Source: Agarophyton chilense (taxonomy: Eukaryota; Rhodophyta; Florideophyceae; Gracilariales; Gracilariaceae). From it: a DNA stretch of 64,000 bases. Location of the stretch: positions 682,001 through 746,000 of the forward strand of contig JARGXX010000031.1 in assembly GCA_030374765.1 (NCBI GenBank), in the 5' to 3' direction. The notes beneath the pieces are model-generated. The model saw only the letters and a list, made by a program, of their open reading frames with translations, was not told where the DNA came from and searched no databases. The translations under genes and the position numbers were made by a program. This document shows, piece by piece, positions 36,374-64,000 of the stretch (its first letter is position 1; each line of letters starts with the position of its first letter).

Positions 36374-36459
36374 ACGACTGCAGAAGGGCGATAGCCGACA
36401 GCTCAAATACGGTCGGGGTCGGTTAACGTGAGATGCAGTTTGAGGGAGCAAAAGGGGGA

Positions 36460-36600: not shown

Positions 36601-39600
36601 TTTCACTCAATGTGAGCAAACTCGTTTCTCTTCTACCAGGCGCCGTACCAAGGCAATAGCTGCTCTATAGAGCCGATTCCAATGAATGTGTCTCCTTCTA
36701 ACGGCTTTATACCGGCGGTAACGAAGGTTATTGAACCGGTTGGGGCTGAACGTCTTTTCTAGCGGCGCCCAACCTTAGACTACCACAGGCGAATACTGTC
36801 GAATGTGAAAGGTGAACGAGCTTGCGTAAAGGGTATCGACAGACATGTTTGTGGAAAAACATGTTTTAGTGCACTTCCGAGAATTAGTAGCATCTGTATA
36901 GAGAGGAGAGTGGTGAGAAAGTTTGGTGTTTTACAGTACTTGGTTGAAATTGAAAAGTTGAATGTATATTAGTTGTGACATGGTCCAGTGGAGAAGAAGC
37001 GCTGTGTGCGAGTGAAGGGGTTTAGTGAAACAACATTAGGTTTTCGGTTTTGCAATGACGCTTGATATGGGTCTACAGAGGCGTATGTGAGAGACGAGGG
37101 GTGTGGTGAGAGTTTAGGAGTGTGGCGCAAATGTAGGGAGCGGCGTGTGGGCGAAGGCGAAAAACGGGGTGTGGGGGGCCCAGGGGGGTGTTTTTGGATG
37201 TGGGCAGACGTAGTCAAAAAGGGGGATTGGGATTGCCTGCAGGCAATAAATTTCAACTGCGAATTACGGCTCATAATTTGCACCCCGATTGTTGATTTGC
37301 ATTATTATTTCGCACTTTCGGGGTGCAAATTATGAGCCGTAATTCGCAGTTAACCAAAAGTGCCCGCAGGCAGTTTCACTCAATGTGAGCAAACTCGTTT
37401 CTCTTCTACCAGGCGCCGTACCAAGGCAATAGCTGCTCTATAGAGCCGATTCCAATGAATGTGTCTCCCTCTCACGGCTTTATACCGGCGGAAACGAAGG
37501 TTATTGAACCGGTTGGGGCTGAACGTCTTTTCTAGCGTCGCCCAACCTTAGACTATCACAGGCGAATACTGTCGAATGTGAAAGGTGAACGAGCTCGCGT
37601 AAAGGGTGCCGACAGACATGTTTGTGGAAAGACATGTTATGGTGCACTTCCGAGAAGTAGTAGCATATGTATAAAGAGGAGAGTGGTGAAAAGGTTTGGT
37701 GTTTTAGAGTACTTGGTTGAAATTGAAAAGTTGAATGTATATTAGGTGTGACACGGTGCAGTGGAGAAGAAGCGCTGTGCCCGAGTGAAGGGGTTTAGTG
37801 AAACATCATTAGGCTTTCGGTTTTGCAATGACGCTTGATATGGGTCTACAGAGGCGTATGCGAGAGGCGAGGGGTGTGGTGAGAGTTTAGGAGTGTGGCG
37901 CAAATGTAGGGAGAGGCGTGTGGGCGAAGGCGAAAAACGGGGTGTTGGGGGCCCAGGGGGGTGTTTTTGGATGTGGGCAGACGTAGTCAAAAAGGGGGAT
38001 TGGGATTGCCTGCAGGCAATAAATTTCAACTGCGAATTACGGCTCATAATTTGCACCCCGATTGTTGATTTGCATTATTATTTCGCACTTTCGGGGTGCA
38101 AATTATGAGCCGTAATTCGCAGTTGACCAAAAGTGCCCGCAGGCAATTTCACTCAATGTGAGCAAACTCGTTTCCCTTCTACCAGGCGCCGTACCAAGGC
38201 CATAGCTGCTGTATAGAGCCGATGCCCATGCCTGTGTCTCCCTCTCATGGCTTCATACCGGCGGTAACGACGGTTATTGAACCGGTTGGGGCTGAACGTC
38301 TTTTCTAGCGGCGGCCAACCTTAGACTACCACAGGCGAATACTGTCGAATGTGAAAGGTGAACGAGCTCGCGTAAACGGTGTCGACAGACATGTTTGTGG
38401 AAAGACATGTTATGGTGCACTTCCGAGAAGTAGTAGCATATGTATAAAGAGGAGAGTGGTGAAAAGGTTTGGTGTTTTAGAGTACTTGGTTGAAATTGAA
38501 AAGTTGAATGTAAATTAGGTGTGACACGGTGCAGTGGAGAAGAAGCGCTGTGCCCGAGTGAAGGGGTTTAGTGAAACATCATTAGGCTTTCGGTTTTGCA
38601 ATGACGCTTGATATGGGTCTACAGAGGCGTATGCGAGAGACGAGGGGTGTGGTGAGAGTTTAGGAGTGTGGCGCAAATGTAGGGAGAGGCGTGTGGGCGA
38701 AGGCGAAAAACGGGGTGTTGGGGGCCCAGGGGGGTGTTTTTGGATGTGGGCAGACGTAGTCAAAAAGGGGGATTGGGATTGCCTGCAGGCAATAAATTTC
38801 AACTGCGAATTACGGCTCATAATTTGCACCCCGATTGTTGATTTGCATTATTATTTCGCACTTTCGGGGTGCAAATTATGAGCCGTAATTCGCAGTTGAC
38901 CAAAAGTGCCCGCAGGCAATTTCACTCAATGTGAGCAAACTCGTTTCCCTTCTACCAGGCGCCGTACCAAGGCCATAGCTGCTGTATAGAGCCGATTCCC
39001 ATGCCTGTGTCTCCCTCTAACGGCTTTATACCGGCGGTAACGACGGTTATTGAACCGGTTGGGGCTGAACGTCTTTTCTAGCGGCGGCCAACCTTAGACT
39101 ACCACAGGCGAATACTGTCGAATGTGAAAGGTGAACGAGCTCGCGTAAACGGTGTCGACAGACATGTTTGTGGAAAGACATGTTATGGTGCACTTCCGAG
39201 AAGTAGTAGCATATGTATAAAGAGGAGAGTGGTGAAAAGGTTTGGTGTTTTAGAGTACTTGGTTGAAATTGAAAAGTTGAATGTAAATTAGGTGTGACAC
39301 GGTGCAGTGGAGAAGAAGCGCTGTGCCCGAGTGAAGGGGTTTAGTGAAACATCATTAGGCTTTCGGTTTTGCAATGACGCTTGATATGGGTCTACAGAGG
39401 TGTATGCGAGAGACGAGGGGTGTGGTGAGAGTTTAGGAGTGTGGCGCAAATGTAGGGAGAGGCGTGTGGGCGAAGGCGAAAAACGGGGTGTTGGGGGCCC
39501 AGGGGGGTGTTTTTGGATGTGGGCAGACGTAGTCAAAAAGGGGGATTGGGATTGCCTGCAGGCAATAAATTTCAACTGCGAATTACGGCTCATAATTTGC

Positions 39601-42600
39601 ACCCCGATTGTTGATTTGCATTATTATTTCGCACTTTCGGGGTGCAAATTATGAGCCGTAATTCGCAGTTGACCAAAAGTGCCCGCAGGCAATTTCACTC
39701 AATGTGAGCAAACTCGTTTCCCTCCTACCAGGCGCCGTACCATGGCCATAGCTGCTGTATAGAGCCGATTCCCATGCCTGTGTCTCCCTCTCATGGCTTC
39801 ATACCGGCGGTAACGACGGTTATTGAACCGGTTGGGGCTGAACGTCTTTTCTAGCGGCGGCCAACCTTAGACTACCACAGGCGAATACTGTCGAATGTGA
39901 AAGGTGAACGAGCTTGCGTAAAGGGTATCGACAGACATGTTTGTGGAAAAACATGTTTTAGTGCACTTCCGAGAATTAGTAGCATCTGTATAGAGAGGAG
40001 AGTGGTGAGAAAGTTTGGTGTTTTACAGTACTTGGTTGAAATTGAAAAGTTGAATGTATATTAGTTGTGACATGGTCCAGTGGAGAAGAAGCGCTGTGTG
40101 CGAGTGAAGGGGTTTAGTGAAACAACATTAGGTTTTCGGTTTTGCAATGACGCTTGATATGGGTCTACAGAGGCGTATGTGAGAGACGAGGGGTGTGGTG
40201 AGAGTTTAGGAGTGTGGCGCAAATGTAGGGAGCGGCGTGTGGGCGAAGGCGAAAAACGGGGTGTGGGGGGCCCAGGGGGGTGTTTTTGGATGTGGGCAGA
40301 CGTAGTCAAAAAGGGGGATTGGGATTGCCTGCAGGCAATAAATTTCAACTGCGAATTACGGCTCATAATTTGCACCCCGATTGTTGATTTGCATTATTAT
40401 TTCGCACTTTCGGGGTGCAAATTATGAGCCGTAATTCGCAGTTGACCAAAAGTGCCCGCAGGCAATTTCACTCAATGTGAGCAAACTCGTTTCTCTTCTA
40501 CCAGGCGCCGTACCAAGGCAATAGCTGCTCTATAGAGCCGATTCCAATGAATGTGTCTCCTTCTAACGGCTTTATACCGGCGGTAACGAAGGTTATTGAA
40601 CCGGTTGGGGCTGAACGTCTTTTCTAGCGGCGCCCAACCTTAGACTACCACAGGCGAATACTGTCGAATGTGAAAGGTGAACGAGCTTGCGTAAAGGGTA
40701 TCGACAGACATGTTTGTGGAAAAACATGTTTTAGTGCACTTCCGAGAATTAGTAGCATCTGTATAGAGAGGAGAGTGGTGAGAAAGTTTGGTGTTTTACA
40801 GTACTTGGTTGAAATTGAAAAGTTGAATGTATATTAGTTGTGACATGGTCCAGTGGAGAAGAAGCGCTGTGTGCGAGTGAAGGGGTTTAGTGAAACAACA
40901 TTAGGTTTTCGGTTTTGCAATGACGCTTGATATGGGTCTACAGAGGCGTATGTGAGAGACGAGGGGTGTGGTGAGAGTTTAGGAGTGTGGCGCAAATGTA
41001 GGGAGCGGCGTGTGGGCGAAGGCGAAAAACGGGGTGTGGGGGGCCCAGGGGGGTGTTTTTGGATGTGGGCAGACGTAGTCAAAAAGGGGGATTGGGATTG
41101 CCTGCAGGCAATAAATTTCAACTGCGAATTACGGCTCATAATTTGCACCCCGATTGTTGATTTGCATTATTATTTCGCACTTTCGGGGTGCAAATTATGA
41201 GCCGTAATTCGCAGTTAACCAAAAGTGCCCGCAGGCAGTTTCACTCAATGTGAGCAAACTCGTTTCTCTTCTACCAGGCGCCGTACCAAGGCAATAGCTG
41301 CTCTATAGAGCCGATTCCAATGAATGTGTCTCCCTCTCACGGCTTTATACCGGCGGAAACGAAGGTTATTGAACCGGTTGGGGCTGAACGTCTTTTCTAG
41401 CGTCGCCCAACCTTAGACTATCACAGGCGAATACTGTCGAATGTGAAAGGTGAACGAGCTCGCGTAAAGGGTGCCGACAGACATGTTTGTGGAAAGACAT
41501 GTTATGGTGCACTTCCGAGAAGTAGTAGCATATGTATAAAGAGGAGAGTGGTGAAAAGGTTTGGTGTTTTAGAGTACTTGGTTGAAATTGAAAAGTTGAA
41601 TGTATATTAGGTGTGACACGGTGCAGTGGAGAAGAAGCGCTGTGCCCGAGTGAAGGGGTTTAGTGAAACATCATTAGGCTTTCGGTTTTGCAATGACGCT
41701 TGATATGGGTCTACAGAGGCGTATGCGAGAGGCGAGGGGTGTGGTGAGAGTTTAGGAGTGTGGCGCAAATGTAGGGAGAGGCGTGTGGGCGAAGGCGAAA
41801 AACGGGGTGTTGGGGGCCCAGGGGGGTGTTTTTGGATGTGGGCAGACGTAGTCAAAAAGGGGGATTGGGATTGCCTGCAGGCAATAAATTTCAACTGCGA
41901 ATTACGGCTCATAATTTGCACCCCGATTGTTGATTTGCATTATTATTTCGCACTTTCGGGGTGCAAATTATGAGCCGTAATTCGCAGTTGACCAAAAGTG
42001 CCCGCAGGCAATTTCACTCAATGTGAGCAAACTCGTTTCCCTTCTACCAGGCGCCGTACCAAGGCCATAGCTGCTGTATAGAGCCGATGCCCATGCCTGT
42101 GTCTCCCTCTCATGGCTTCATACCGGCGGTAACGACGGTTATTGAACCGGTTGGGGCTGAACGTCTTTTCTAGCGGCGGCCAACCTTAGACTACCACAGG
42201 CGAATACTGTCGAATGTGAAAGGTGAACGAGCTCGCGTAAACGGTGTCGACAGACATGTTTGTGGAAAGACATGTTATGGTGCACTTCCGAGAAGTAGTA
42301 GCATATGTATAAAGAGGAGAGTGGTGAAAAGGTTTGGTGTTTTAGAGTACTTGGTTGAAATTGAAAAGTTGAATGTAAATTAGGTGTGACACGGTGCAGT
42401 GGAGAAGAAGCGCTGTGCCCGAGTGAAGGGGTTTAGTGAAACATCATTAGGCTTTCGGTTTTGCAATGACGCTTGATATGGGTCTACAGAGGCGTATGCG
42501 AGAGACGAGGGGTGTGGTGAGAGTTTAGGAGTGTGGCGCAAATGTAGGGAGAGGCGTGTGGGCGAAGGCGAAAAACGGGGTGTTGGGGGCCCAGGGGGGT

Positions 42601-45103
42601 GTTTTTGGATGTGGGCAGACGTAGTCAAAAAGGGGGATTGGGATTGCCTGCAGGCAATAAATTTCAACTGCGAATTACGGCTCATAATTTGCACCCCGAT
42701 TGTTGATTTGCATTATTATTTCGCACTTTCGGGGTGCAAATTATGAGCCGTAATTCGCAGTTGACCAAAAGTGCCCGCAGGCAATTTCACTCAATGTGAG
42801 CAAACTCGTTTCCCTTCTACCAGGCGCCGTACCAAGGCCATAGCTGCTGTATAGAGCCGATTCCCATGCCTGTGTCTCCCTCTAACGGCTTTATACCGGC
42901 GGTAACGACGGTTATTGAACCGGTTGGGGCTGAACGTCTTTTCTAGCGGCGGCCAACCTTAGACTACCACAGGCGAATACTGTCGAATGTGAAAGGTGAA
43001 CGAGCTCGCGTAAACGGTGTCGACAGACATGTTTGTGGAAAGACATGTTATGGTGCACTTCCGAGAAGTAGTAGCATATGTATAAAGAGGAGAGTGGTGA
43101 AAAGGTTTGGTGTTTTAGAGTACTTGGTTGAAATTGAAAAGTTGAATGTAAATTAGGTGTGACACGGTGCAGTGGAGAAGAAGCGCTGTGCCCGAGTGAA
43201 GGGGTTTAGTGAAACATCATTAGGCTTTCGGTTTTGCAATGACGCTTGATATGGGTCTACAGAGGTGTATGCGAGAGACGAGGGGTGTGGTGAGAGTTTA
43301 GGAGTGTGGCGCAAATGTAGGGAGAGGCGTGTGGGCGAAGGCGAAAAACGGGGTGTTGGGGGCCCAGGGGGGTGTTTTTGGATGTGGGCAGACGTAGTCA
43401 AAAAGGGGGATTGGGATTGCCTGCAGGCAATAAATTTCAACTGCGAATTACGGCTCATAATTTGCACCCCGATTGTTGATTTGCATTATTATTTCGCACT
43501 TTCGGGGTGCAAATTATGAGCCGTAATTCGCAGTTGACCAAAAGTGCCCGCAGGCAATTTCACTCAATGTGAGCAAACTCGTTTCCCTCCTACCAGGCGC
43601 CGTACCATGGCCATAGCTGCTCTATAGAGCCGAGTCCCATGCCTGTGTCTCCCTCTCATGGCTTCATACCGGCGGTAACGACGGTTATTGAACCGGTTGG
43701 GGCTGAACGTCTTTTCTAGCGGCGGCCAACCTTAGACTACCACAGGCGAATACTGTCGAATGTGAAAGGTGAACGAGCTCGCGTAAACGGTGTCGACAGA
43801 CATGTTTGTGGAAAGACATGTTATGGTGCACTTCCGAGAAGTAGTAGCATATGTATAAAGAGGAGAGTGGTGAAAAGGTTTGGTGTTTTAGAGTACTTGG
43901 TTGAAATTGAAAAGTTGAATGTAAATTAGGTGTGACACGGTGCGGTGGAGAAGAAGCGCTGTGCCCGAGTGAAGGGGTTTAGTGAAACATCATTAGGCTT
44001 TCGGTTTTGCAATGACGCTTGATATGGGTCTACAGAGGCGTATGCGAGAGACGAGGGGTGTGGTGAGAGTTTAGGAGTGTGGCGCAAATGTAGGGAGAGG
44101 CGTGTGGGCGAAGGCGAAAAACGGGGTGTTGGGGGCCCAGGGGGGTGTTTTTGGATGTGGGCAGACGTAGTCAAAAAGGGGGATTGGGATTGCCTGCAGG
44201 CAATAAATTTCAACTGCGAATTACGGCTCATAATTTGCACCCCGATTGTTGATTTGCATTATTATTTCGCACTTTCGGGGTGCAAATTATGAGCCGTAAT
44301 TCGCAGTTGACCAAAAGTGCCCGCAGGCAATTTCACTCAATGTGAGCAAACTCGTTTCCCTCCTACCAGGCGCCGTACCATGGCCAAAGCTGCTCTATAG
44401 AGCCGAGTCCCATGCCTGTGTCTCCCTCTAACGGCTTTATACCGGCGGTAACGACGGTTATTGAACCGGTTGGGGCTGAACGTCTTTTCTAGCGGCGCCC
44501 AACCTTAGACTACCACAGGCGAATACTGTCGAATGTGAAAGGTGAACGAGCTCGCGTAAACGGTGTCGACAGACATGTTTGTGGAAAGACATGTTATGGT
44601 GCACTTCCGAGAATTAGTAGCATATGTATAGAAAGGAGAGTGGTGAGAAAGTTTGGTTTTTTAGAGTACTTGGTTGAAATTGAAAAGTTGAATGTACATG
44701 AGTTGTGACACGGTGCAGTGAAGAAGAAGCGTTGTGGGCGATTGAAGCGGTTTAGTGAAACATCATTAGGCTTTCGGTTTTGCAATGGGGCTTGAAATGG
44801 GTCTACAGAGGCGTATGCGAGAGACGAGGGGTGTGGTGAGAGTTTAGGAGTGTGGCGCAAATGTAGGGAGAGGCGTGTGGGCGAAGGCGAAAAACGGGGT
44901 GTTGGGGGCCCAGGGGGGTGTTTTTGGATGTGGGCAGACGTAGTCAAAAAGGGGGATTGGGATTGCCTGCAGGCAATAAATTTCAACTGCGAATTACGGC
45001 TCATAATTTGCACCCCGATTGTTGATTTGCATTATTATTTCGCACTTTCGGGGTGCAAATTATGAGCCGTAATTCGCAGTTGACCAAAAGTGCCCGCAGG
45101 CAA
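36460..45103 (+). repeat. 773-bp satellite array, 11 spacers between 12 hairpin elements
   Basis: The period is exactly 773 bp throughout: the hairpin element starts at 36460, 37233, 38006, 38779, 39552, 40325, 41098, 41871, 42644, 43417, 44190 and 44963. Each unit is a 141-bp hairpin element plus a 632-bp spacer. The array starts and ends at hairpin edges (36460; 45103). Both strands contain short open frames in every unit (104 codons minus; 71-84 plus), but these look incidental. A higher-order duplication is present: variants private to units near 36.5-39.7 kb recur 3,865 bp (five units) later. Confidence 0.95.
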
Positions 45104-45540
45104 TTTGCCACACACAACCCCCCTAAAACTTATAAAATTTGGTGTCTGTGCAGCGGTTTTTTTGGAACGGATCGCGATTGCTGTGACGCGTGTCACGCGT
45201 CGTTGGGGTTCAGGTTGCCACTACACAACCACTAGGAGCCCTTTTTAGTTTTTCGCGGAAAGGACGGAGTCGAAGTACACCCGTTTACACCCGTTTTCCC
45301 CGCCGTCACATTCCTTCCCTTTCCCGAACTGCAGCCTCTGTCTTGTTTTGTAAACGGATCAAGCGGGCGCCATCAAAGTTCGCATCAAGTCTGCACTTTT
45401 ACTTGAATCATCTCCCCGCGGGCCTGAGTTTCGGATCTGCCGTATTTGGCTTTGTGTTCCGCCTTCATTCGCCCGTGTCATAGTTTTTGTTGTCACGCTC
45501 TTCTGCGCGCATCTCCCCGGTTCATATTGTGTGTATTGCA
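45104..45540 (+). other. Upstream region of the ParB-dioxygenase gene
   Basis: Non-repeat sequence begins at or within two bases of the right edge of the twelfth hairpin. It includes AAAACTTATAAAATTTGG at about 45126, a possible TATA element, and a GC-rich leader. The frame is open upstream of the ATG from 45487, but with only non-ATG codons. Confidence 0.4.
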
Positions 45541-48500
45541 ATGCCATCGCGTGGAAAACATCAACACATGAAAGCAGCCGACGTCGTGTTTCTTTTGGCG
45601 AAAGGCGAAGGGGGAAACCGCCGGCGCGTCGGAACGGCTGTGTTGATGCCTGGTAGGAAGGAGGGGGAATTGTCCAGGGATATGCATGGATCTAGCCTAA
45701 AGAGCTTTGAGGCGGAAGGTGAGGATTTGGTGAAAGTTCGCAGTGTTAAGATCCTGCCGGGGTTTGACGACATTAGGTACCCGTACCGATTTGGTGGTGT
45801 GGAAGAACCGCCTGCAACACTGGGTGGGGTGTTACCGAATTCTTTTTATTCGTGGGACCTCGGTATGATGGAGGCGATGGAAACAACAGGGGAGGTGGTT
45901 GAGGTGGATTCAGATGAATCCGCTGATGCGGTCGGAAAGAGGAGGAGAAAGTCCCCACCCCCGTCGAAGGGTACTCCCGACGTACAACGGCGTCCACCTA
46001 CGACGCCCCGAACGGGAAGTCGTAAGACGAGGTCCCAGAGCCGCCAAGGGCGCGCATCGCAGCGCTCGAATGCATCTGGTTCGACTGCAACTGGTGCTGG
46101 GGCAACTGTTGCCACCGTTTCTCCTGGTACAATTCGACGCACTGGGCGACCTCGTCTGAGGTCTCAACCAACGCCGCGCAGGGGCACATCCGTTTCACGC
46201 GCAGTAACGCCACGCCCTCGTACGCCACCGGGCGGAACGATTGAAGTGGGTACTTCGGCCGCCAAGGCAATGGAGGTGGATGAGGACGTCATTTTCACGG
46301 GTATGAGGTCGGGCCCGTCGAACACCCGGTCATTGTCACAAGCGATGGAGCCTCCGAAACAGGCTGTTGCGATCCCCACCGATAGCAAGATTGAGCTGAA
46401 CCACTATAGGCAGGTGAATGCTACGGTGGATATCGGCAGAATTCGCTACGGGGAGCATCAAGTGCGGGCATTGAATGGGCAGCACAGGGAGAATTTGAAG
46501 GTTATGATGGAGCAGCAAGGTGTTTTGGGAGCGGTTGGGCGGGTCAGCGTTGCAATCGTGCTCGGCGGCAGATCAGTGGATGAGGTTCTTCAAGGCAATT
46601 CAATTACCTGTGAGTGTCTGTTGGTGGATGGGCTTCATCGTTTGGTGGTGTACCAAGACCTGAGGAACACGTCCCAGAGTTGGAAAAGCATGACCCAAGT
46701 GCTGGACGTCGTTCTGTGGTTGCGACCGGACGGGAAGGACCTCACAAGGAAGGAGCGGTTGAGCATCGGTTGTAAGCTGAACATCATGGCAAGCAACGTG
46801 TTGGCGATGTCGTTTGCAGACCGCGTGCACACCACCGTGTCGTTCATAATGGCGTCAGTGTTGGATGACAAAGTGAAGGTCAAGTCACTGACGTCATATG
46901 CGGTGGCAGTAGCGATGCAAGAGTTTATGCTACTCGGCACATTGGAAACGACGCAACTTCGGCGCTACGCCGACATTGCCCTTGCTCTTGTAAGGAGCCC
47001 GGAGTTGCTGAGCAACTTTGAGAAGGTGTGCAAAGAGGCGCCGAAGTTGGGTCTGTCGCATTTGTCGGACGACCGGTTGTACACACTCGATGAAGGCGGT
47101 TTTTTGTTTTGCGTGGAGTGTGTGAAGGCTTTACTGGGTACCCGCGGGGGTTTCGAAGGGGGGAGAAGGGGCCGGTTCGAGGATATGCGGTATAACTTTT
47201 TCAAGTTTGCGCTGCAGGTGTACTTCTTTTGCCGACAAGTGGCAGAGAAGAAGGACGTGACGGTTGCCGCCGTGCTCGACACCCAAATGAGCATTGGCGG
47301 AGTGGAAACGTCCACCGTGCGGAACTTCCTCGTCATGATTGTGTCGAAGATGGAGAACTCCGGGAGCGACCGGCAGTGGGAAAGGAAGCTGGAGCGCAAA
47401 ATGAAGGAAGTAACGGACAGGATGGAGGGGTTGTTTGAAGTAGGGAGTGAGGAGAGGAGTAGGGAAAGGGTCTCCAGCGAGCCCTCGGGGCAGCATCAAA
47501 GTCGGAGCGCTCCGGGACGGGCGAAGGTGAAGACTGTGGCGCCGTCGCCGGAGGTGGCTGTGTTGGACTTGGACGACGACATGAACTACAACGAGTCGCG
47601 TCCAAGGGTGAGCACGCGTAAGGGGAAAGGAAAAAGAACTGTTCCAAGCGTGGAAGAGGTGCCGGTTGGGCGTGCAAGGGGTGTGAAGCGAAAAGCTCCT
47701 GACACGAGACTGTCTCCACCCAGTCGCCGGTCGAAGAGAACCCAACTGGCACAGGAAAGGGAGTTGTTGCAGCGGATGAAGCAGTTGCGGAGAGATACTC
47801 TGTTTGAACTGTTGGGGAACCTGGGAATCCGCGCCGAGAACTTCTCAGACGGCGAGGGTAATGAGGCATTCGTGACGGACGATGCAGTGGGTGAAGGTGT
47901 GCAGCAGGGTGGGGAGGGGTCGATGAGAGATGCTGACATTGAGCGCCCATTTGACGACTCTAACCCTCCCGATGGACCGCCGCAATGGATGAGGCTGCCA
48001 GAAACTTACAAAGGGGCTTCATCGCCGGCATGGTGTAATTGGGCAAATGTGCCGCCGAGCATGTTGCCAAAGGATGTTAACGTGATTGAACACGTGCATC
48101 CTTGGCTGGACACCATCCATATGGCGTCCAAGCACCGAGCTGAATGCCTGACGGCGGAAGAGCTGAAGCTGGTCCACCATCTGGTGTTTTGGCACGCCGC
48201 GAAGGAGAAGCATGCGGCGCTAGAATCTACCAAGGTTCCGGTGTTTGGACAAGTGCTACCGACGAGCGGCAATCCGAAAAGTGAAGAGGAGCGCCTGTGG
48301 ATGGCAGCGATGGAGCGGGATGAGTTGGCGTTGGAGTTCTTCGGTGAAAAGCGCAGGGAGCTGCAACACCAAGGGTTCTGCATTTTGGAATCGTTTGCAA
48401 CCGATGAGGGTGCGCCGAAATGTTTGAATGGTGGGGATGTGTCTGGGAAAATGCTGCAATGGTTTGAAGACAACTTCAAGCAGCAGCCCGACTTGCGGAT

Positions 48501-49434
48501 TGAATCGAACCGCATAAGATGGAACCCGATTATCAACGCCGGATCGGCGGTGGATGGGAAGGATCGGAATGTAGGAGTTGGAAGGTTTATGACGACCCGA
48601 GCCGGGATGGTGGATGCAGTAGAACGCGACCCGCAATTGGAGTGGCTTGTTCGGCGTCGGGCATTGTTGGATGCGCGGCTGGGCCAGATCTTGTGTGCGT
48701 TGCGATTGAACAACAACCTCAGCAACAGCATCAAGATGCATGGGCCGGTGACAGGAGGCAGAGTTTTGTGCACGAGCTTGGAATGCCGGCGGCAAGCTCT
48801 TCACACCGACTTTCGAGGGCTGACGCACGAAGAAAGGGAGGCCGGAGGGAACCCGGGGTACTTTATGATGGTTTCTGGGCAGTTTTCGTTCCCCATATGG
48901 GTGTGCGAAGATTCGCACCGCACGGTATTCGGAAGCTTGCAGCGCCTGAAGCAGCTTTCGAAGAGCATGGAGGTGAAAAAGTTGCGAGTGCCACCGTTCT
49001 CTGTTTTCATTGGCAGGGGAGACGTGTTCCACGCTGGAGCTTCTTACGAAGACGGGTACATGGAGCGTGAGCTGGTCCGCTACCACATGTACATGGTGCC
49101 TGACGGATATCAGCTCCCTGATGCAGTTCACCGGCAACAGGGATTCACTCCGCGGTTTGTGTCCAATGATGACGTGGACCTACAAGCCGAAGAGGAATAT
49201 GAAGGACTGGGGGAACAAGGGACCAAGAATAACTCCGGAGAGGACGATGCGCAGTCGCCGATAGAAGCAGACGAGATAGAAGCGATGGAGGTGGCCAACG
49301 ACGAATCGGATTTAGACGCGGAGATTTTGCAATTGGTGGGAGGGGACAACAACGGCTATGCAGGGGCTGATAGCGATGGCATTCATGAGTCTGACTGGGT
49401 CGTCAGTGATGAATCTGAAGCCAATAACGCATGA
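45541..49434 (+). CDS. ParB/sulfiredoxin-like domain fused to a 2OG-Fe(II) dioxygenase-like domain
   Basis: 1297 residues from ATG at 45541, intronless. Residues 1-120 are of unknown fold; 120-260 are basic and disordered, with an AT-hook-like GRPRLR and many S/T-P. About 285-400 reads 'VDIGRIRYGEHQVRALNG', then 'MMEQQGVLGAVGRVSVAIV' and 'CLLVDGLHRLVVYQDL': the ParB/Srx N-terminal fold with its D-G-x-H-R motif (D363, G364, H366, R367). A helical region with 'LTRKERLSIGCKLN' follows, as after ParB domains. A second disordered basic stretch lies at 640-760. From about 800 to 1190 is a 2OG-oxygenase-like domain with H1088-x-D1090 (LHTDF), distal H1164 (GDVFHAG) and R1180 (LVRYHMY): the iron triad and 2OG-binding Arg spacing of the superfamily. 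The tail is acidic. Likely nuclear and DNA-acting; base oxidation in the TET/JBP sense is conceivable but unproven. Confidence 0.72.
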   Translation: MPSRGKHQHMKAADVVFLLAKGEGGNRRRVGTAVLMPGRKEGELSRDMHGSSLKSFEAEGEDLVKVRSVKILPGFDDIRYPYRFGGVEEPPATLGGVLPNSFYSWDLGMMEAMETTGEVVEVDSDESADAVGKRRRKSPPPSKGTPDVQRRPPTTPRTGSRKTRSQSRQGRASQRSNASGSTATGAGATVATVSPGTIRRTGRPRLRSQPTPRRGTSVSRAVTPRPRTPPGGTIEVGTSAAKAMEVDEDVIFTGMRSGPSNTRSLSQAMEPPKQAVAIPTDSKIELNHYRQVNATVDIGRIRYGEHQVRALNGQHRENLKVMMEQQGVLGAVGRVSVAIVLGGRSVDEVLQGNSITCECLLVDGLHRLVVYQDLRNTSQSWKSMTQVLDVVLWLRPDGKDLTRKERLSIGCKLNIMASNVLAMSFADRVHTTVSFIMASVLDDKVKVKSLTSYAVAVAMQEFMLLGTLETTQLRRYADIALALVRSPELLSNFEKVCKEAPKLGLSHLSDDRLYTLDEGGFLFCVECVKALLGTRGGFEGGRRGRFEDMRYNFFKFALQVYFFCRQVAEKKDVTVAAVLDTQMSIGGVETSTVRNFLVMIVSKMENSGSDRQWERKLERKMKEVTDRMEGLFEVGSEERSRERVSSEPSGQHQSRSAPGRAKVKTVAPSPEVAVLDLDDDMNYNESRPRVSTRKGKGKRTVPSVEEVPVGRARGVKRKAPDTRLSPPSRRSKRTQLAQERELLQRMKQLRRDTLFELLGNLGIRAENFSDGEGNEAFVTDDAVGEGVQQGGEGSMRDADIERPFDDSNPPDGPPQWMRLPETYKGASSPAWCNWANVPPSMLPKDVNVIEHVHPWLDTIHMASKHRAECLTAEELKLVHHLVFWHAAKEKHAALESTKVPVFGQVLPTSGNPKSEEERLWMAAMERDELALEFFGEKRRELQHQGFCILESFATDEGAPKCLNGGDVSGKMLQWFEDNFKQQPDLRIESNRIRWNPIINAGSAVDGKDRNVGVGRFMTTRAGMVDAVERDPQLEWLVRRRALLDARLGQILCALRLNNNLSNSIKMHGPVTGGRVLCTSLECRRQALHTDFRGLTHEEREAGGNPGYFMMVSGQFSFPIWVCEDSHRTVFGSLQRLKQLSKSMEVKKLRVPPFSVFIGRGDVFHAGASYEDGYMERELVRYHMYMVPDGYQLPDAVHRQQGFTPRFVSNDDVDLQAEEEYEGLGEQGTKNNSGEDDAQSPIEADEIEAMEVANDESDLDAEILQLVGGDNNGYAGADSDGIHESDWVVSDESEANNA

Positions 49435-50076: not shown

Positions 50077-52770
50077 GTTTTAGAATACTTGGTTGAAGAC
50101 GTAATATGGCGTGTGGGGGGCCCAGGGGGGTGTTTTAGGATGTGGGCAGACGTAGTCAAAAAGGGGGATTGGGATTGCCTGCAGGCAATAAATTTCAACT
50201 GCGAATTACGGCTCATAATTTGCACCCCGATTGTTGATTTGCATTATTATTTCGCACTTTCGGGGTGCAAATTATGAGCCGTAATTCGCAGTTGACCAAA
50301 AGTGCCCGCAGGCAATTTCACTCAATGTGAGCAAACTCGTTTCCCTTCTACCAGGCGCCGTACCAAGGCCATAGCTGCTGTATAGAGCCGATTCCCATGC
50401 CTGTGTCTCCCTCTAACGGCTTTATACCGGCGGTAACGACGGTTATTGAACCGGTTGGGGCTGAACGTCTTTTCTAGCGGCGCCCAACCTTAGACTACCA
50501 CAGGCGAATACTGTCGAATGTGAAAGGTGAACGAGCTCGCGTAAACGGTGTCGACAGACATGTTTGTGGAAAGACATGTTATGGTGCACTTCCGAGAAGT
50601 AGTAGCATATGTATAAAGAGGAGAGTGGTGAAAAGGTTTGGTGTTTTAGAGTACTTGGTTGAAATTGAAAAGTTGAATGTATATTAGGTGTGACACGGTG
50701 CAGTGGAGAAGAAGCGCTGTGCCCGAGTGAAGGGGTTTAGTGAAACATCATTAGGCTTTCGGTTTTGCAATGGGGCTTGAAATGGGTCTACAGAGGCGTA
50801 TGCGAGAGACGAGGGGTGTGGTGAGAGTTTAGGAGTGTGGCGCAAATGTAGGGAGAGGCGTGTGGGCGAAGGCGAAAAACGGGGTGTTGGGGGCCCAGGG
50901 GGGTGTTTTTGGATGTGGGCAGACGTAGTCAAAAAGAGCGATTGGGATTGCCTGCAGGCAATAAATTTCAACTGCGAATTACGGCTCATAATTTGCACCC
51001 CGATTGTTGATTTGCATTATTATTTCGCACTTTCGGGGTGCAAATTATGAGCCGTAATTCGCAGTTGACCAAAAGTGCCCGCAGGCAATTTCACTCAATG
51101 TGAGCAAACTCGTTTCCCTCCTACCAGGCGCCGTACCATGGCCATAGCTGCTGTATAGAGCCGATTCCCATGCCTGTGTCTCCCTCTAACGGCTTTATAC
51201 CGGCGGTAACGACGGTTATTGAACCGGTTGGGGCTGAACGTCTTTTCTAGCGGCGGCCAACCTTAGACTACCACAGGCGAATACTGTCGAATGTGAAAGG
51301 TGAACGAGCTCGCGTAAACGGTGTCGACAGACATGTTTGTGGAAAGACATGTTTTGGTGCACTTCCGAGAATTAGTAGCATATGTATAGAAAGGAGAGTG
51401 GTGAGAAAGTTTGGTTTTTTAGAGTACTTGGTTGAAATTGAAAAGTTGAATGTACATGAGTTGTGACACGGTGCAGTGAAGAAGAAGCGTTGTGGGCGAG
51501 TGAAGAGACGCAGTGAAACAACATTAGGTTTTCGGTTTTGCAATGACGCTTGATATGGGTCTACAGAGGCGTATGCGAGAGACGAGGGGTGTGGTGAGAG
51601 TTTAGGAGTGTGGCGCAAATGTAGGGAGCGGCGTGTGGGCGAAGGCGAAAAACGGGGGTGTGGGGGGCCCAAGGGGGTGTTTTTGGATGTGGGCAGACGT
51701 AGTCAAAAAGGCGGATTGGGATTGCCTGCAGGCAATAAATTTCAACTGCGAATTACGGCTCATAATTTGCACCCCGATTGTTGATTTGCATTATTATTTC
51801 GCACTTTCGGGGTGCAAATTATGAGCCGTAATTCGCAGTTGACCAAAAGTGCCCGCAGGCAATTTCACTCAATGTGAGCAAACTCGTTTCTCTTCTACCA
51901 GGCGCCGTACCAAGGCAATAGCTGCTCTATAGAGCCGATTCCCATGCCTGTGTCTCCCTCTAACGGCTTTATACCGGCGGTAACGAAGGTTATTGAACCG
52001 GTTGGGGCTGAACGTCTTTTCTAGCGGCGCCCAACCTTAGACTACCACAGGCGAATACTGTCGAATGTGAAAGGTGAACGAGCTTGCGTAAAGGGTATCG
52101 ACAGACATGTTTGTGGAAAAACATGTTTTAGTGCACTTCCGAGAATTAGTAGCATCTGTATAGAGAGGAGAGTGGTGAGAAAGTTTGGTGTTTTACAGTA
52201 CTTGGTTGAAATTGAAAAGTTGAATGTACATGAGTTGTGACACGGTGCAGTGAAGAAGAAGCGTTGTGGGCGAGTGAAGGGGTTTAGTGAAACATCATTA
52301 GGCTTTCGGTTTTGCAATGGGGCTTGAAATGGGTCTACAGAGGCGTATGCGAGAGACGAGGGGTGTGGTGAGAGTTTAGGAGTGTGGCGCAAATGTAGGG
52401 AGAGGCGTGTGGGCGAAGGCGAAAAACGGGGTGTTGGGGGCCCAGGGGGGTGTTTTTGGATGTGGGCAGACGTAGTCAAAAAGAGCGATTGGGATTGCCT
52501 GCAGGCAATAAATTTCAACTGCGAATTACGGCTCATAATTTGCACCCCGATTGTTGATTTGCATTATTATTTCGCACTTTCGGGGTGCAAATTATGAGCC
52601 GTAATTCGCAGTTGACCAAAAGTGCCCGCAGGCAATTTCACTCAATGTGAGCAAACTCGTTTCTCTTCTACCAGGCGCCGTACCAAGGCAATAGCTGCTC
52701 TATAGAGCCGATTCCCATGCCTGTGTCTCCCTCTAACGGCTTTATGCCGGCGGTAACGACGGTTATTGAA
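50077..52770 (+). repeat. Second block of the 773-bp satellite
   Basis: It starts inside a unit with an internal deletion (the spacer jumps from TTGGTTGAA to GGGGGGCCCAGGGG near 50095-50110). Full units follow, with hairpin elements at 50175, 50948, 51722 and 52495 (spacings 773, 774 and 773). Variant patterns match the right-hand units of the first block, so both blocks come from one array interrupted by the 5-kb gene-bearing segment. Confidence 0.93.
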
Positions 52771-53488
52771 CCGGTTAAGGCTGAATGTTTATTGTAAGAG
52801 TTGGCCATCCCAACACTACAACATTCAAAGACTGTCAGGTAGGAAGGGTGAACTAGGGCGTCCTAAAGCTACCGACAGAGTTTGTTGTAAAAAAGTGTTT
52901 CTCGGTGCGTTGGCGAGAAGTTGTAGCAGCTGCATAGCGAGTGGTGAGGAGTTGAGGTAGCAATTGACCTGCTGGGTTGAATGTTGAGTTTTTGATCATT
53001 GTTTTGATTACGTGGTACAATGGGTTTAGATAGTTGTGCGCGCTCCAAGAAAAGCAGAAGAACAAAAGTAAGTTTAAACGTTTGAACTGACTATTGAGAT
53101 TAGTCTACGGTGGTTCATGCGAGATTTTACGCATTTGTTATGGGTTCATAGTGTTGCACAAAAGTAAAGAGAGCCGGGTTTCAAACATGATTTGCGGCAT
53201 TTTACGCATTTAGACGGGTTTAAAGCATGTCCAGGAGCGGGGTGGAAAACCCTGCCGTAGAACTTGTTCTGGGGTGCGGTTCTAGGACTTTAGGCTGTGG
53301 AGGGTTGTTTTGGGATGTTGGCGTGTTTAGTTGAGAGTGTCCAAGAATTGCCTGCTGGCAGAATTTTTCACCTGCAAATTACGGCTCATAATTTGCTACG
53401 TGATTGTTGATTTGCATTATTTTTTCGCACTTTCGGGGTGCAAATTATGAGCCGTAATTCGCAGTTGACCAAAAGTGCCCGCAGGCAA
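52771..53488 (+). repeat. Strongly diverged terminal satellite unit
   Basis: From about 52771 similarity to the satellite falls sharply but remains traceable (TGAAC, GAGTGGTGA, TTGTTTTGGGATGTTGG). It ends with a diverged hairpin element at 53348-53488, whose left arm has several mismatches while its right arm is nearly perfect. The array ends exactly at that hairpin edge. Older, diverged units at an array edge are usual for satellites. Confidence 0.8.
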
Positions 53489-54702
53489 TCCCATACATTA
53501 AAAAATAAAAATATTAAATTATCATAGAGGGAAACCGAAAGTGGCAAAACGCGACACGAGGCCACGAGGCCACGAGTCCACGACGCCACGACGCCACGAC
53601 GACTCCGCGTCACGACTCGAGGCATTTGTACAGCAAGGCCCGGTGGGTGATGGCGCTTGTTGTGCAATGGGTGTGCGCTGTATACAGTGTCGCTGTTGTA
53701 TAGTTGGGACACGAGGGGCATGTACGAGATGCGATGGGCATTGTACATTTTCGGACAAGCGCTGCCAAACAGCGCATGTGTATCGGTGGCAGCGTGACTC
53801 CCATTCAGAATTTTTCAGCGTTGTTCGTTTGAGCGTATGTGTGTGTGACTGCTTCCGCGTCGCGCCGGAATGGTATGGGGGCGTCGACGTGACAAAAAAG
53901 CGCGCTTGCGACGCACGTTTTACATCATCTGAGAAGCACGCGTGTGCGCGTAGTGGAGCGAGCGACGGTGATGTGATTGCTATTTGCAATATACAAACTG
54001 AACATTCTATCAGAATGTCGCTGTCAAATTCTGCAGTGGATTAAAACTGTGCAGCCGGCTTTGTGCGCAGCGGTGCGTGGCACTAGGCCCACCCCCACCG
54101 GAGTGGAAGGGAGGGTTGGTCACAGAGGGGTTTAGCCTTGCAAATTGTATTGGGGGTATCGAGAGAGCCGGGGATTTTAGGCGGGAGGAGTATTGAGGAG
54201 GGCTTGCAAACATGCCATAGTTCGGAACAGCGACAAGCAGACATAATGTGCCAGTGCTTTAAGTTGCGACAAGGAAGCGAGACGTTTTGTCGTGCAATTT
54301 GGCCGAGCTGGCGCGCACGTCACACAAACAAACAAACAGCATAGACATGGTAGACACATGCGCGAGAGCGCCATGGACGCGCGGGGGTGACTGTAATAAA
54401 GGGCAACGGCTCCAGCGCCCGCTGTGAATGACGTTGTCGGCGAGCGCTCTCTTTGGCGTGCATACAACACGCGTTGGCACACGCGGCTCACTCGGACGCG
54501 CACGCGACGCATCCATGTCACGCTGTGTGCAAGACGGGCACGTCTTGTAGGGGCGTTGTGAGCTATAAGAAGTGAGGCGACGGCGATCCGTGACAAGAAA
54601 ACAACGGGCACAGGTTGTAGTTTAGTATAGCAGCTTTACAGACAAGAACCCATCCACATCCTTGAATTGCATGCTGTGGGTGGTTTTCGAGGGGTTAAGA
54701 CT
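53489..54702. other. Non-satellite flank with 9-bp minisatellite
   Basis: About six units of a 9-bp motif (CCACGAGGC/CCACGACGC) lie at about 53553-53604. Frames here (for example plus 53541-54044, Cys-rich, opening with GTG) overlap long frames on the minus strand and are not supported as genes. Confidence 0.35.
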
Positions 54703-55909: not shown

Positions 55910-56725
55910 CTAGTTGTGTTGCAAGGCCATTGTGACAAAGTAGCTATGGGTGGGCGCGATATCCGCTTCTCCTTCGGCTGAAAGGCGTAAGCTCATGTCG
56001 TGAAAAACTCGGTTGCGCCAATTGAACTCGCTTAGAGAAGTGGCAAAGTGGCCTACGTGTAGCCCATAAGCCAACAAAGCGTTCACCGTTGCTTGCTGTG
56101 GTAAGTACACGCCTCTGCATTTGGCTACCAGCGTGATCAGCTCGGTCATAACTGGTCGTAGCACTGCTTGGTATTGTGTGGCAAGTGCTTTAATGTCCAC
56201 ATTTCCAAAAGCAGCTCCTACAATGTTAAACGAACAAAGCCAAATTAACTTTTCGTAGTAGGCGCGCGTCCAGTCGTCGTCGTTCACCACAGAGGCTTCT
56301 ACCCCTCCTGTTCGTAGGCGGTCGGCCAAAGCTTGGGCCCATTTGCCAGTCATTGTAGTGCGACCGCCGTTTCTCACAGTGGACGGGTCTCGCGATGGAA
56401 CTGCAACGTAGAGCACGACTCGTGTGTTGTGCTGCAAGCCATGTTTCTGTAGAAACGGCATGATATCTCCATTTTGCATGAACACAAGATCCTGGCGTCG
56501 ATGAGGTGGGCATTGTGTAATAACTTCTTGCAATGCATCGTTTCTCGTACATACGAAAATGGGTCCTTCATTTCTGCATCGATTGAGGTTGTCTCCACGT
56601 CGCAGCACCACATCCGCTTCCTGCGATTGCGTTGGACTACCAAGGGTTTTGAGCCAAGAGCCAATTCTTCCCGCTCCCACGATGGTGCATGGTATGGGTT
56701 TTTTTTGCGTCCGAGTCGCGGTTAT
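55910..56725 (-). CDS. Ketopantoate-reductase-like (ApbA/PanE) protein, start codon problem
   Basis: The frame contains an N-terminal Rossmann motif 'CTIVGAGRIGSWL' (NADPH-binding G-x-G-x-x-G), 'DLVFMQNGDIMPFL' (the family's QNG line), and in the C-terminal helical domain 'YYEKLIWLCSFNIVGA', where the Lys matches the catalytic Lys of 2-dehydropantoate 2-reductase. At about 260-270 residues it is close to family size (300). Such enzymes reduce ketopantoate to pantoate, or related 2-keto acids. The frame has no ATG before the Rossmann motif. An ATG at 56690 (ATGCACC...) is out of frame by one base, so a single-base insertion there, an upstream exon, or a non-ATG start is needed. It is flanked by direct repeats, so it may have moved as a block. 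Confidence 0.6.
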   Translation of the reverse strand: MTATRTQKKPIPCTIVGAGRIGSWLKTLGSPTQSQEADVVLRRGDNLNRCRNEGPIFVCTRNDALQEVITQCPPHRRQDLVFMQNGDIMPFLQKHGLQHNTRVVLYVAVPSRDPSTVRNGGRTTMTGKWAQALADRLRTGGVEASVVNDDDWTRAYYEKLIWLCSFNIVGAAFGNVDIKALATQYQAVLRPVMTELITLVAKCRGVYLPQQATVNALLAYGLHVGHFATSLSEFNWRNRVFHDMSLRLSAEGEADIAPTHSYFVTMALQHN

Positions 56726-56752
56726 GGCTGTGTCCTATATATATTACAGGTT

Positions 56753-57599: not shown

Positions 57600-57905
57600 A
57601 GTTTACGTTTTCGTAGAGGAAACCATTGTGTACGGGCTTTTACAGGTTTCAGGGGTTTAGGGGTTTAGGGGTTGAGGGGTTTAGGGGTTTTAGGAGAAGC
57701 TTTACCTTTATGGGATTTTGAAGTTACGGAGAGGAAAACATTGTGTAGGGGTTTTAGGGGTTTTAGAGGTTCAGGGGTTCAGGGGTTCAGGGGGTTTAGG
57801 GGAAACTTTACCTTTATGGGATTTTTTATTTACGGAGAGGAAAACATTGTTTAGGGGCTGGAGGGCTTTAGGGGTTTTAGGGGAAGCTTTGCGTTTATTG
57901 GATTT
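57600..57905 (+). repeat. Telomere-like repeats with subtelomeric cassettes
   Basis: Short runs of GGTTTAGGGG/GGTTTTAGGGG alternate with two good copies and one partial copy of a block reading TTTACCTTTATGGGATTT...TACGGAGAGGAAAACATTG. The same block is found between the arrays at 34.7 kb. The G-rich strand is again plus. Confidence 0.8.
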
Positions 57906-58339: not shown

Positions 58340-61300
58340 TTAAATGAGTGTTGTGGTTGACTTCCACCAAGCTGCAAGGCGTAGAATGTTGGGTACGGCA
58401 AAGTGGTTGTTGTGTGTTAACCAATCATGAAACATGGCGTCTATTTCAAGGTGGAGGGGTGAGGAATCTTGGGAGGATTGGGAAATGGAGTTGAACTTGG
58501 ATTGCATGCGGCCGTCAAAGAGGTGGAGTGCAATTTCGGAGCGAGTTTTGGAGCATGTTCGCCACAAGACCCATGCCAGTTGATAGAGCGAAATGAAGAT
58601 GCAGTGTCTTGTTCCAAAAGTGTGCGGTTGAGAATGAGTTTTGAGTCCCTTGCAGAATCCGAGATGGCAACGGTAGCAGGTTCCTTGAGGTGATTTATCG
58701 AACCTGCAGTTGCGCGATATATGGTGCGGCGAAAAGCATCTGAAGCATCGTTGACGGGAATGGGGGCATGCATGAGTGTCCGTCAAGTGCACTTGCGTTT
58801 TTTCGTGCAGCAAGCATGGCACACAGAGAGGGGCAAGTCGGCGGGAGAGCTCCTCGAAGTGTGACACGATTTGTTGCGGTGTTTTTCGTTCCAAGGTGTA
58901 AAAGAAGGTGGCAGAGTGCGACTGAGATTGAGAATGAGCGACAGTGGGCGATTGGGTCGCTGCGGATGGATGCGTGGTTGTCAGCAACGGCGATGGAGTG
59001 GAGGTGGGGGGTCGTGGTGGACGACTGGCGTGGGGTTTGGGGCTTTGTGTTGGGCCGCCGTTGGTGTTGGTGTTTTGGTTGTTTAAGGATGTTCTGTTTG
59101 ATTGATTGGCACGGTTTTTTGGCGGCGTGGGCGTTTGTGGGGAAGCGCTGGGTGACGGTGAAATGGATTGGGCGTGCTGAGAGGCAGAAGGGGTAGCGGA
59201 AACGGAGCTTCGTTCCGGGGTGGGAGAGGGGGAGACAGCTGCGATGCTATTGCAAATATCGCAATTAAGAACCGAAGGAGAGAAGAGACAGATGCCTGGT
59301 TCTTTTCCGTCCATGTGGAAATAGAGGGCGTTCCTTCGACAAACAGATTTGCATTCGACCCAATGCTGCGCTTCCAACCAACGCTCCGTGGAAAGTGCTT
59401 GGTTGTATATGCGATTGGGCTCCTCAAACGCATTTGTGTTGGATGAGGACGAAGAAAGAGTTTCCGTAACGAGTTTGAAGTAGGGCTGGAAATAAATGGT
59501 GACGCAAGTGGATGGGTTTCCATCGCGGCCGGCCCTGCCGGCCTGTTGCGCGAGGTCGCAAAGACTCGCTACTCCACCAAAGTTGAAAACCAGGCGAACG
59601 TTGGGAACGTCGATGCCCGTACCAAAAGAAGAGGTGCAAACCATGAAGAGAATGTGGTTGGTTGTGGGTGCGCTGGAAGAAGGCGGAGAGTTCCAAAGGG
59701 TGTGAGCCCGGCGTTTACGAACATCGGAGAGACCAGAATGGTACAGGAGAACCGTGACAGTAGTGGATTGTTTAAGGGCACCAAAAGAAGAACGCGAAGC
59801 GGCGAGAGCTTCATGGACAGCTTCGGCAGCCGGGCGTGTTAACGAGAATATAAGAACGCGAGCTAGGGTTGTGTCAGCCGACGAGTGAAGCAATCGAGCC
59901 ACATGCTCTTGCATGATTGAGACGCCCAGCTGAAGCAGGTATCCAAACACATCCTGAAAGTGGCCATGAGCGGCGCGAAAGCGTGTGGCACGCGAAGTGC
60001 TGGGGGCTGAGCTTAGCTGATACACGACAAAAGAAATGTTGTTTCTTGCAGTCGAAGAAGCGTACACATGCGCGTTCGGGATGTGCAGCTGCGACAGAAG
60101 AAGGGGGCGGTCGCGCGGCGGCACTGTCGCGCTTAAAAGCACGCGAGGGATCTTTGTGGGAATATGGCCGAAGCAGTTGTGGAGGTTGGCCAAGCACGGG
60201 CGAAAGTGTTGCCATAAAAGAAATAAGTGACATTCATCGATGGCAATGCGGGCGAGGCGGTCGGCGGCGATCAGTCGCGTGGTGAACTCTGTAAAAGAAG
60301 GAAGAGAAAGTCTTTCAGCGGAAAAGATGTAAATGTCGGCAAAGGAGTGCGATCCGGGAGGGGTGGGTGTACGAGAAGCACGAAGGCCGAAGAGCTGAGC
60401 GCGCAGTTCGTATTCACTGAGCAAGGCTGTGAGAGGGGTGATGAGAACGGTGGAGTATTTGCCCTTTTCCATGAAGACGGGGAGCAGAAGAGATAGTGTT
60501 TTTCCAGATCCAGTCGGCTGGAGTAGTAGCATGTTGGAAAGCCTGTTGTACACGGCCGCTGTGTTCACAAATTGTTGGTGGGACTTGAATAAAGCGGAGT
60601 CGTTGGAAAGTGCCTGTCTTAGTGCTCGGAGCATTTCTGATGTAATATGTTCGTAGGTCACAAGCGGTTGTTGTAAGAGAGAAGCTCCACCGCGCGGTAT
60701 GGCGGCTGCCATAAAAGCAGGCGGATGTGGATTGAAAGGATGAGAGGCGGCCAGGTTTAGGTTGATTTGAGAATGGGGGATCGCAGAGCGGTCAGTGGGA
60801 GGGGACGGGGTTGGCTGCGATGTATGGATGGAGCGCTTTGGTTCAGGTGTAGGTAGAACTGTGTCAGTAACCGGACGTTTTCTGTGGTGTTGTTGTTGTT
60901 GTTGTTGTTGGGTGAGGGGAGCATTAAGAAGAAGACCGAGATACTGGTGCCATTTGCTGGACCACTCGCGATATTTGGAAAGTTGAGAGTGCTGCAAACC
61001 GGATATGTCATGTGGTGTACGAGCGTAAAGAAAAGCGGCGGTGTGCGCAGAGTGGCCCGCCTGGCCATGGGCAGTGGTCAATAGCTCTTCCAAGATGTGA
61101 TCGGCTACAGAAGATGCGGTGACATTGGAAACTGTGTTGGTCATTCCCACGGTGAAGTTTCTATAGTCGTTGAAGGATATCGGGAAACCGCGTTTGCTCA
61201 AGTGAGAGCTGATTATCGAGCGGATGGTGTTTGCGGCATACGGAATTCCGCAGTTGGCGAACAGCATTTTCCAATGCATCTGGAAACAGTTTTCTCCGTG

Positions 61301-63882: not shown

Positions 63883-64000
63883 AACTGAACGTGTAAGAGA
63901 GAGAAGAAGACGCTTGGGAGGATTGTTTTTGAAGACGCAAAGAAAGACACACACAAACAAACACAATCGAGTTTGGGAGCATCAGCGAAATGGACGGGTT

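Follow-up and report, generated by a model that had tools for sequence, protein, structure and literature searches.

Why is a frame of 1,297 codons kept open inside a satellite array of a red alga, and what does it encode? We examined a stretch of 64,000 nucleotides from Agarophyton chilense (assembly GCA_030374765.1, contig JARGXX010000031.1, here C31:682001-746000), called the window below, and searched the 79.8 Mb and 135 contigs of this genome. Open reading frame (ORF) translation of the window gave a frame from 45487 to 49434, in which an ATG at 45541 starts a protein of 1,297 amino acids (aa) with a predicted ParB-like part and a predicted C-terminal domain of the 2-oxoglutarate (2OG)-Fe(II) dioxygenase type. 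A reading made from the letters alone (the sequence-only reading) had reported an intact 1,297-codon frame inside a satellite, and the ORF together with 773-bp units on both sides bears this out. We favor, at a probability of roughly 0.6, the explanation that the ORF is a cargo gene within a mobile cassette for modifying DNA and histones, carried by transposons in one family of copies (family 2) and located at chromosome ends in the other (family 1, which includes the window copy).

A conserved gene in two families

A genome search with the full protein, in which 36 of 473 candidates were scored and all counts are lower bounds, found at least nine full-length, stop-free family-1 copies at 99-100% identity, window copy included, as well as broken copies. 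Family 2 (A1), 42% identical to family 1, was represented by at least four stop-free frames of 1,193-1,247 aa at 41-42% identity. A second search used the family-2 C-terminal domain (100 of 177 candidates scored, 101 matches). It returned at least 40 family-2 domains, complete or one residue short, at 95-100% identity, and 28 of these 40 were stop free. The same search recovered 13 full family-1 matches at 55% identity, plus shorter pieces, and 12 older matches at 37-47% identity, every one with stops. Because full-length stop-free copies at 99-100% identity and frames at 41-42% identity exist, a chance ORF is excluded.

The codons of the copies argue the same way. Among nine family-1 copies (six haplotypes), 24 codons occurred in two states, with 14 synonymous and 10 replacement differences. 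Replacements fell below the neutral fraction of 0.762 (P = 3e-4); with the neutral fraction set by choice at 0.70 or 0.65, P was 0.004 or 0.016. This is the deficit that a codon comparison between copies, proposed by the sequence-only reading, would look for, and it is a second reason for rejecting a chance ORF. Three intact family-2 copies differed by three synonymous and four replacement changes and are too alike for a conclusion. An ordinary host gene was likewise rejected, since the copies occupy many loci within transposons or satellites. Every copy whose flanks were fetched sits in repeats, not in the nonrepetitive sites that the sequence-only reading had named as evidence against itself.

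The motifs named in that reading are present, and of DGLHR, H1088, D1090, H1164 and R1180 only L365 is changed in the 42%-identical family-2 protein. The HxD...H...R set of 2OG-Fe(II) dioxygenases is thus invariant across the two families, and the distance from H1164 to R1180 is one that we take to resemble the spacing in TET and JBP enzymes. Identity between the families is 54% in the C-terminal domain versus 38% in the ParB-like part. The Box I loop reads GVLGA in family 1 and GWLAS in family 2 by eye in the alignment. Compared by eye, the Box I and Box II (GxxR) patterns fit the description of the ParB-type CTPase pocket in the available part of PMC12704722.

Profile and structure searches gave little. 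The 1,297-aa protein matched nothing in Pfam or NCBIfam at E ≤ 1, its single PDB match (E = 0.44) was irrelevant, and Pfam, NCBIfam, PHROGs and PDB searches of the family-1 and family-2 proteins returned nothing significant. AlphaFold models built on two-row alignments had a mean predicted local distance difference test (pLDDT) score of 32 for the C-terminal domain and 57.6 for the ParB-like part, below 50 over the motif region, and Foldseek with these models found no match at E ≤ 0.001. Of the ParB/Srx and double-stranded beta-helix folds proposed from sequence, then, the motifs held up and no fold match appeared with these poor models. Canonical TET/JBP identity is not supported: Tet_JBP (PF12851) had 0 matches genome-wide at E ≤ 1 (its control was weakly positive, in E. 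coli only) and none by hmmscan. PF20515, which is presumably linked to TET/JBP, had 0 matches in the genome, but its controls gave no match anywhere.

Poor models and the lack of a significant profile match are also what would be seen if both labels were wrong and the protein were a transposon accessory, for example a DNA-binding partner of a transposase, with its motifs present by chance. We consider this unlikely. The catalytic-type residues are invariant between families that share 42% identity, both Box patterns fit the available description (PMC12704722), and family 1 stays intact away from the transposase.

Partner genes, hairpins, and satellite

In both families, the divergent upstream gene encodes an N6_N4 DNA methyltransferase (PF01555) fused to a SET domain (PF00856). 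The methyltransferase matches (E = 9e-17 and 3e-18 in the two families) are above the Pfam cut-off, and the SET matches (E = 1e-5 and 8e-5) score 26.0 and 23.4 bits against a cut-off of 22.4. The two methyltransferase-SET proteins share 37% identity. Their DPPY motif lies ahead of the FxGxG motif, the bacterial N6/N4 type, and their PDB relatives are DpnA, CcrM, MboIIA and RsrI (E = 2e-8 to 5e-5). The best PHROG is a phage family (phrog_67, 1.5e-25), and the phage proteins resembling the methyltransferase are distant, with all 19 records below 60% identity and the 12 listed at 25-43%. A search of viral_contigs gave 66 pattern matches, 0 of them confirmed as viral relatives. A DNA methyltransferase-SET fusion as partner fits a modification role for the cassette.

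The partnership recurs from copy to copy. PF01555 had 121 match rows genome-wide, some of them pieces of a single gene, and a divergent methyltransferase lies within 12 kb upstream of 10 of 13 full family-1 copies. No methyltransferase row is listed for the C9 and C63 copies; tblastn shows a broken one on C9. By tblastn, the methyltransferase gene or its start adjoins the ParB/2OG gene in family-1 loci L010, L012, L015, L016 and L020-L023, and in L018 the adjoining methyltransferase is broken. Downstream of the ParB/2OG gene, both families carry a PanE/ApbA-like gene whose Pfam scores fall below the cut-off. Two frames in L049 (251 and 217 aa) matched no Pfam family and nothing in the window or the other loci.

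Between the two divergent genes lie hairpins. In family 2, seven palindromes, each about 75-80 bp long and 81-89% self-complementary, separate the methyltransferase and ParB/2OG genes on C86, and likewise on C98. In family 1, the 773-bp satellite occupies this region, with one long hairpin per unit. The hairpin that the sequence-only reading had placed beside the gene is real, and the window contains its arm 34 times, versus a shuffled mean of 0. Where both array edges are listed (C31, C9, C96 and C98), they coincide with those of the hairpin: the array begins at unit position 82, facing the methyltransferase, and stops at 229, facing the ParB/2OG gene. The gap between the genes in family 1 is about 1.66 kb on C96, C92, C33, C9 and C22, 0.84 kb on C21 (the shortest), 2.4 kb on C95, 3.3 kb on C98 and 4.0 kb on C103. 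The 773-bp satellite looks like an amplified intergenic hairpin region of the cassette.

Divergent methyltransferase and ParB-like genes flanking palindromes could also form a selfish pair resembling a restriction-modification system. The methyltransferase would protect sites and a ParB-like nickase or nuclease would cut unmodified DNA, punishing loss of the element or provoking recombination at the palindromes. The phage family that is the best PHROG of the methyltransferase agrees with this explanation, as do nicking by a ParB-methylase fusion and phage ParB-N6/N4 methyltransferase fusions, reported in the accessible parts of PMC5512222 and PMC12704722, respectively. Such a pair would leave the SET domain and the better conserved 2OG-like domain unexplained, however, and broken copies are common, which makes it quite improbable.

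Gene and satellite are shared as one stretch among many copies. Fifteen distinct family-1 copies match window positions 45000-50200 end to end, including satellite on both sides; C116 (cut by the contig start), C22 and six C21 copies do not match over this whole segment. Because the 15 copies share the flanking satellite, the idea that a young element inserted independently into an already existing satellite is unsupported. The six C21 copies stand in tandem at C21:638574-667259, 4.8-5.6 kb apart, and all lack the stretch equivalent to window 48374-49573. The sequence-only interpretation is partly supported; it overlooked the partner genes, the Plavaka context described below and the place of the satellite as the intergenic region of the cassette.

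Transposon-borne and chromosome-end copies

Comparison of the C86, C98 and C97 copies revealed a sharp right end of the family-2 element. Its terminal sequence occurs 251 times at up to two mismatches, versus 0 in a reversed control, and stands at both element ends in inverted orientation, as at C86:960196-978925 (18.7 kb). Five elements (C86, C98, C10, C117 and C12) were delimited, 18.0-18.9 kb long, with a 23-bp terminal inverted repeat (TIR; 22 of 23 positions matching in C86). All five have TA at both junctions, with no longer direct repeat up to 11 bases, and a Plavaka transposase domain (PF18759) near the left end, in frames of 910-1,155 aa. Plavaka elements are described as having TIRs and a 2- to 3-bp target duplication (PMC12730594, in the part available), and the family-2 element has both; its termini, CGTC..GACG, are unlike the two reported there for Plavaka.

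The association holds across family 2. Counting with 99 of the 121 methyltransferase rows and 61 of the 123 Plavaka rows, we found a divergent methyltransferase 3-9 kb upstream of 36 of the 40 full-length domains and a same-strand Plavaka domain 8-18 kb upstream of 33. By eye, a same-strand Plavaka domain is likewise found 7-13 kb upstream of 3 of the 12 older matches (C103, C128 and C16), and the association of the cassette with Plavaka may therefore be old. In family 1, a Plavaka domain lies within 25 kb of only 1 of 13 full copies, at 17.5 kb, and among the remaining Plavaka rows none was seen by eye within 25 kb of these copies. The window copy lacks a Plavaka transposase where one would be expected, and the family-2 terminal sequence has 0 matches in the window. 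A KDZ transposon was set aside as well, since PF18758 gave no match, though its control matched nowhere. Two elements of about 4.8 kb (C3:24938-29751 and C1:1548338-1553176) have the terminal repeats of the family-2 element along with a Plavaka domain, with no methyltransferase or ParB/2OG match listed, and are smaller relatives of the large element.

Family 1 is subtelomeric. The gene stands no more than about 64 kb from the terminus at 15 ends (C21, C22, C31, C33, C68, C92, both ends of C95, C96, C98, C103, C106, C107, C116 and C117; on C68 the relevant end is the low-coordinate one) and is transcribed toward the end in 15 of 15. Five small contigs (C9, C32, C63, C76 and C89) are uninformative for orientation. 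Telomere-type repeats (TTTAGGGG and variants) occur where C95 starts and where C22 ends. The repeats at these two ends and in the window are mixtures of TTTAGGGG, TTTTAGGGG and TTTAGGG, not TTAGGG, and the subtelomere contains interstitial arrays.

Such a location, with uniform orientation and hairpin arrays adjoining a ParB-like gene, might suggest a partition or centromere-like system in which the ParB-like protein binds the satellite and segregates or caps chromosome ends. Family 2, however, is interstitial and transposon-borne, the ParB fold is predicted from motifs only, and no ParA-like family appeared in a general scan of 9 of the 15 window frames of at least 200 aa or of four neighbor frames, a scan that included no dedicated ParA or parS search. 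We regard a partition system as very improbable.

The window unit runs from telomere-like arrays through 349-bp repeats, satellite, the ParB/2OG gene, satellite again and the PanE-like gene to a short telomere-like array and a RecQ helicase with an OrsD-type frame (Table 1). Past the window, the next methyltransferase-SET gene (C31:746852-750190, locus L014) begins just outside, followed by more satellite. The 349-bp repeats (35451-36373) are tandem and 99% alike; they follow the telomere-like array and precede the satellite, in the place that the methyltransferase-SET gene takes in other copies. A RecQ-type helicase was met at one further place, on C21 (L026). The helicase and OrsD-type frame of the window resemble fungal subtelomeric RecQ helicases as described in the available part of PMC7473861.

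Y' elements are chromosome-end units with internal telomere repeats. By analogy, the window unit resembles tandem Y'-type units with interstitial telomere repeats.

Table 1. Features of the window (positions count from its first letter; motif and domain names are predictions)
Feature	Position	Strand	Basis or remark
Interstitial TTTAGGGG-type telomere-like arrays	34328..35464 (34328-34618, 34992-35464)	+	G-rich strand points to contig end
773-bp satellite array, upstream	36456..45106	.	Starts at unit position 82, ends at 229; about eleven units
Long imperfect hairpin, gene-proximal satellite edge	44962..45104	.	57-nt arms, 88% complementary
ParB-like/2OG-dioxygenase-like gene, family 1	45541..49434	+	1,297 aa, intact frame
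N-terminal part, conserved across both families	45541..45879	+	Profile scan assigns no known family
Box I-like helix and loop of ParB-type nucleotide pocket, residues 315-331	46483..46533	+	Read by eye
Box II-like P motif DGLHR (GxxR), residues 363-367	46627..46641	+	DGHHR in family 2
C-terminal dioxygenase-like domain	47896..49167	+	54% identity, family 1 vs family 2
H-T-D (H1088, D1090)	48802..48810	+	Family-1/family-2 alignment
Distal H1164	49030..49032	+	Family-1/family-2 alignment
R1180, 16 residues past H1164	49078..49080	+	Family-1/family-2 alignment
773-bp satellite array, downstream	50095..53580	.	Resumes at unit position 6; last unit only about 60% alike
PanE/ApbA-like gene	55910..56728	-	Pfam score below cut-off; 39% identical to family-2 counterpart
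Short degenerate telomere-like array, distal to PanE-like gene	57645..57883	+	Repeat reading
RecQ-family helicase (58340-63052) and OrsD-type zinc-finger frame (62776-63966)	58340..63966	-	Profile matches

Proposed mechanism and known systems

The anatomy of the cassette (methyltransferase-SET gene, hairpin region, ParB-like/2OG-like gene and PanE-like gene) is well supported, and the cassette is mobile and its parts are coinherited. For its mechanism, we infer the following. The ParB-like module would load at the hairpins, where the methyltransferase and SET domains would write DNA and histone marks, and the 2OG domain, brought by the ParB-type module, would remove or convert them. Together, the cassette proteins would hold the intergenic promoter region in a chosen state, keeping the element expressed and guarding it against host silencing. 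The satellite may have grown by unequal exchange between hairpins, and the cassette may also have settled in Y'-like chromosome-end units. The DNA-acting, possibly base-modifying protein envisaged from sequence alone agrees with the mobility, the repeat context, the motifs and the methyltransferase-SET partner; its link to canonical TET/JBP enzymes is not supported.

Several observations weigh against a modification cassette. The ParB and 2OG assignments are motif based, and weak profile matches on family-2 pieces point elsewhere (Peptidase_C93, E = 0.034; DUF4382, E = 0.22), while weak PHROGs matches (0.016, unknown; 0.39, "endonuclease"; 0.36, unknown) support neither fold. Motif I of the C86 family-2 methyltransferase is FAGTF versus FAGTG in family 1 (F for G). 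The window copy has no divergent methyltransferase of its own, telomere-like and 349-bp repeats occupying that place, and the nearest one belongs to the next unit downstream, beyond the window. Many copies are broken, with a stop inside 12 of the 40 family-2 domains, and within the set distance ranges 4 of the 40 lack a divergent methyltransferase and 7 lack a Plavaka domain. Many other ends in the wider list have TG, TT, CA or AA instead of TA; the duplication is therefore probably of any two bases, with TA preferred. The hairpins of the two families are unlike in sequence by eye, and the shared feature is therefore their architecture. All results come from one genome.

A more far-reaching version of the modification cassette remains tentative, and we hold it as doubtful. 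It would be a eukaryotic transposon with a complete phage-like epigenetic operating system, comprising a methyltransferase-SET writer, a ParB clamp-2OG eraser and hairpin site arrays. One lineage would have shed its transposase and turned into a chromosome-end element with its site array as satellite.

Parts of the cassette have counterparts elsewhere, which we compare here as far as the available portions of the cited papers describe them. Fungal DNA transposons carrying TET/JBP genes (Kyakuja, Zisupton, Plavaka and others; PMC12730594) likewise bear cargo of the dioxygenase type, with DNA marks as its possible target. The dioxygenase-like domain described here, in contrast, keeps HxD without a TET/JBP profile match, shares its protein with a ParB-like part and moves alongside a methyltransferase-SET gene. 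The main text of PMC12730594 does not contain the word "ParB," and its available part brings up N6-methyladenine (6mA) solely as a base on which dioxygenases might act. In Phytophthora, HarbingerS and MuDR transposons also encode SET proteins, with no DNA methyltransferase fusion or ParB-like partner mentioned in that part. Transposon-borne dioxygenases and SET proteins are thus already known in fungi and oomycetes (PMC12730594).

The N4CMT protein of bdelloid rotifers (PMC8885841) similarly combines a permuted N6_N4 methyltransferase of bacterial type with a eukaryotic chromatin domain. There it is a chromodomain in one allelic gene pair; here it is a SET domain in many mobile copies. That 2022 paper states that N4CMT has no eukaryotic homologs, and the rotifer case is a known eukaryotic recruitment of this methyltransferase class (PMC8885841). 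Phage ParB-N6/N4 methyltransferase fusions, often in prophages (PMC12704722), tie a ParB-type fold to the same methyltransferase class, whereas here a eukaryotic transposon encodes the two in divergent genes of their own, together with SET and 2OG-like parts. Fungal subtelomeric RecQ helicase regions (PMC7473861) are chromosome-end repeat units with a helicase.

Yeast Y' elements are such units as well, but the units described here also hold a modification cassette and a hairpin satellite. In the open-licence PMC papers searched, the cassette combination was not found. If the modification cassette is real, eukaryotic transposons have spread a bacterial-type DNA methyltransferase-SET fusion beside a candidate eraser to about a hundred places, a figure drawn from the 121 PF01555 match rows, some of which are pieces of one gene. 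Three ideas would become testable: 6mA or N4-methylcytosine (4mC) as a mark made by mobile elements, the way in which transposon cargo counters silencing, and the origin of a satellite from a transposon's own regulatory repeats that settle at telomeres.

Two further repeats were noted. A Copia-type reverse transcriptase fragment (RVT_2, 2e-22) lies at window 23648-25342. Elsewhere in the genome, a 2.45-kb repeat (L039:1-2448, C97:1062800-1065247) has 42 match rows. Five of its copies on C5 are spaced at 9,734 bp and two on C78 at 9,736 bp, a spacing which suggests that it is part of a tandem array such as ribosomal DNA.

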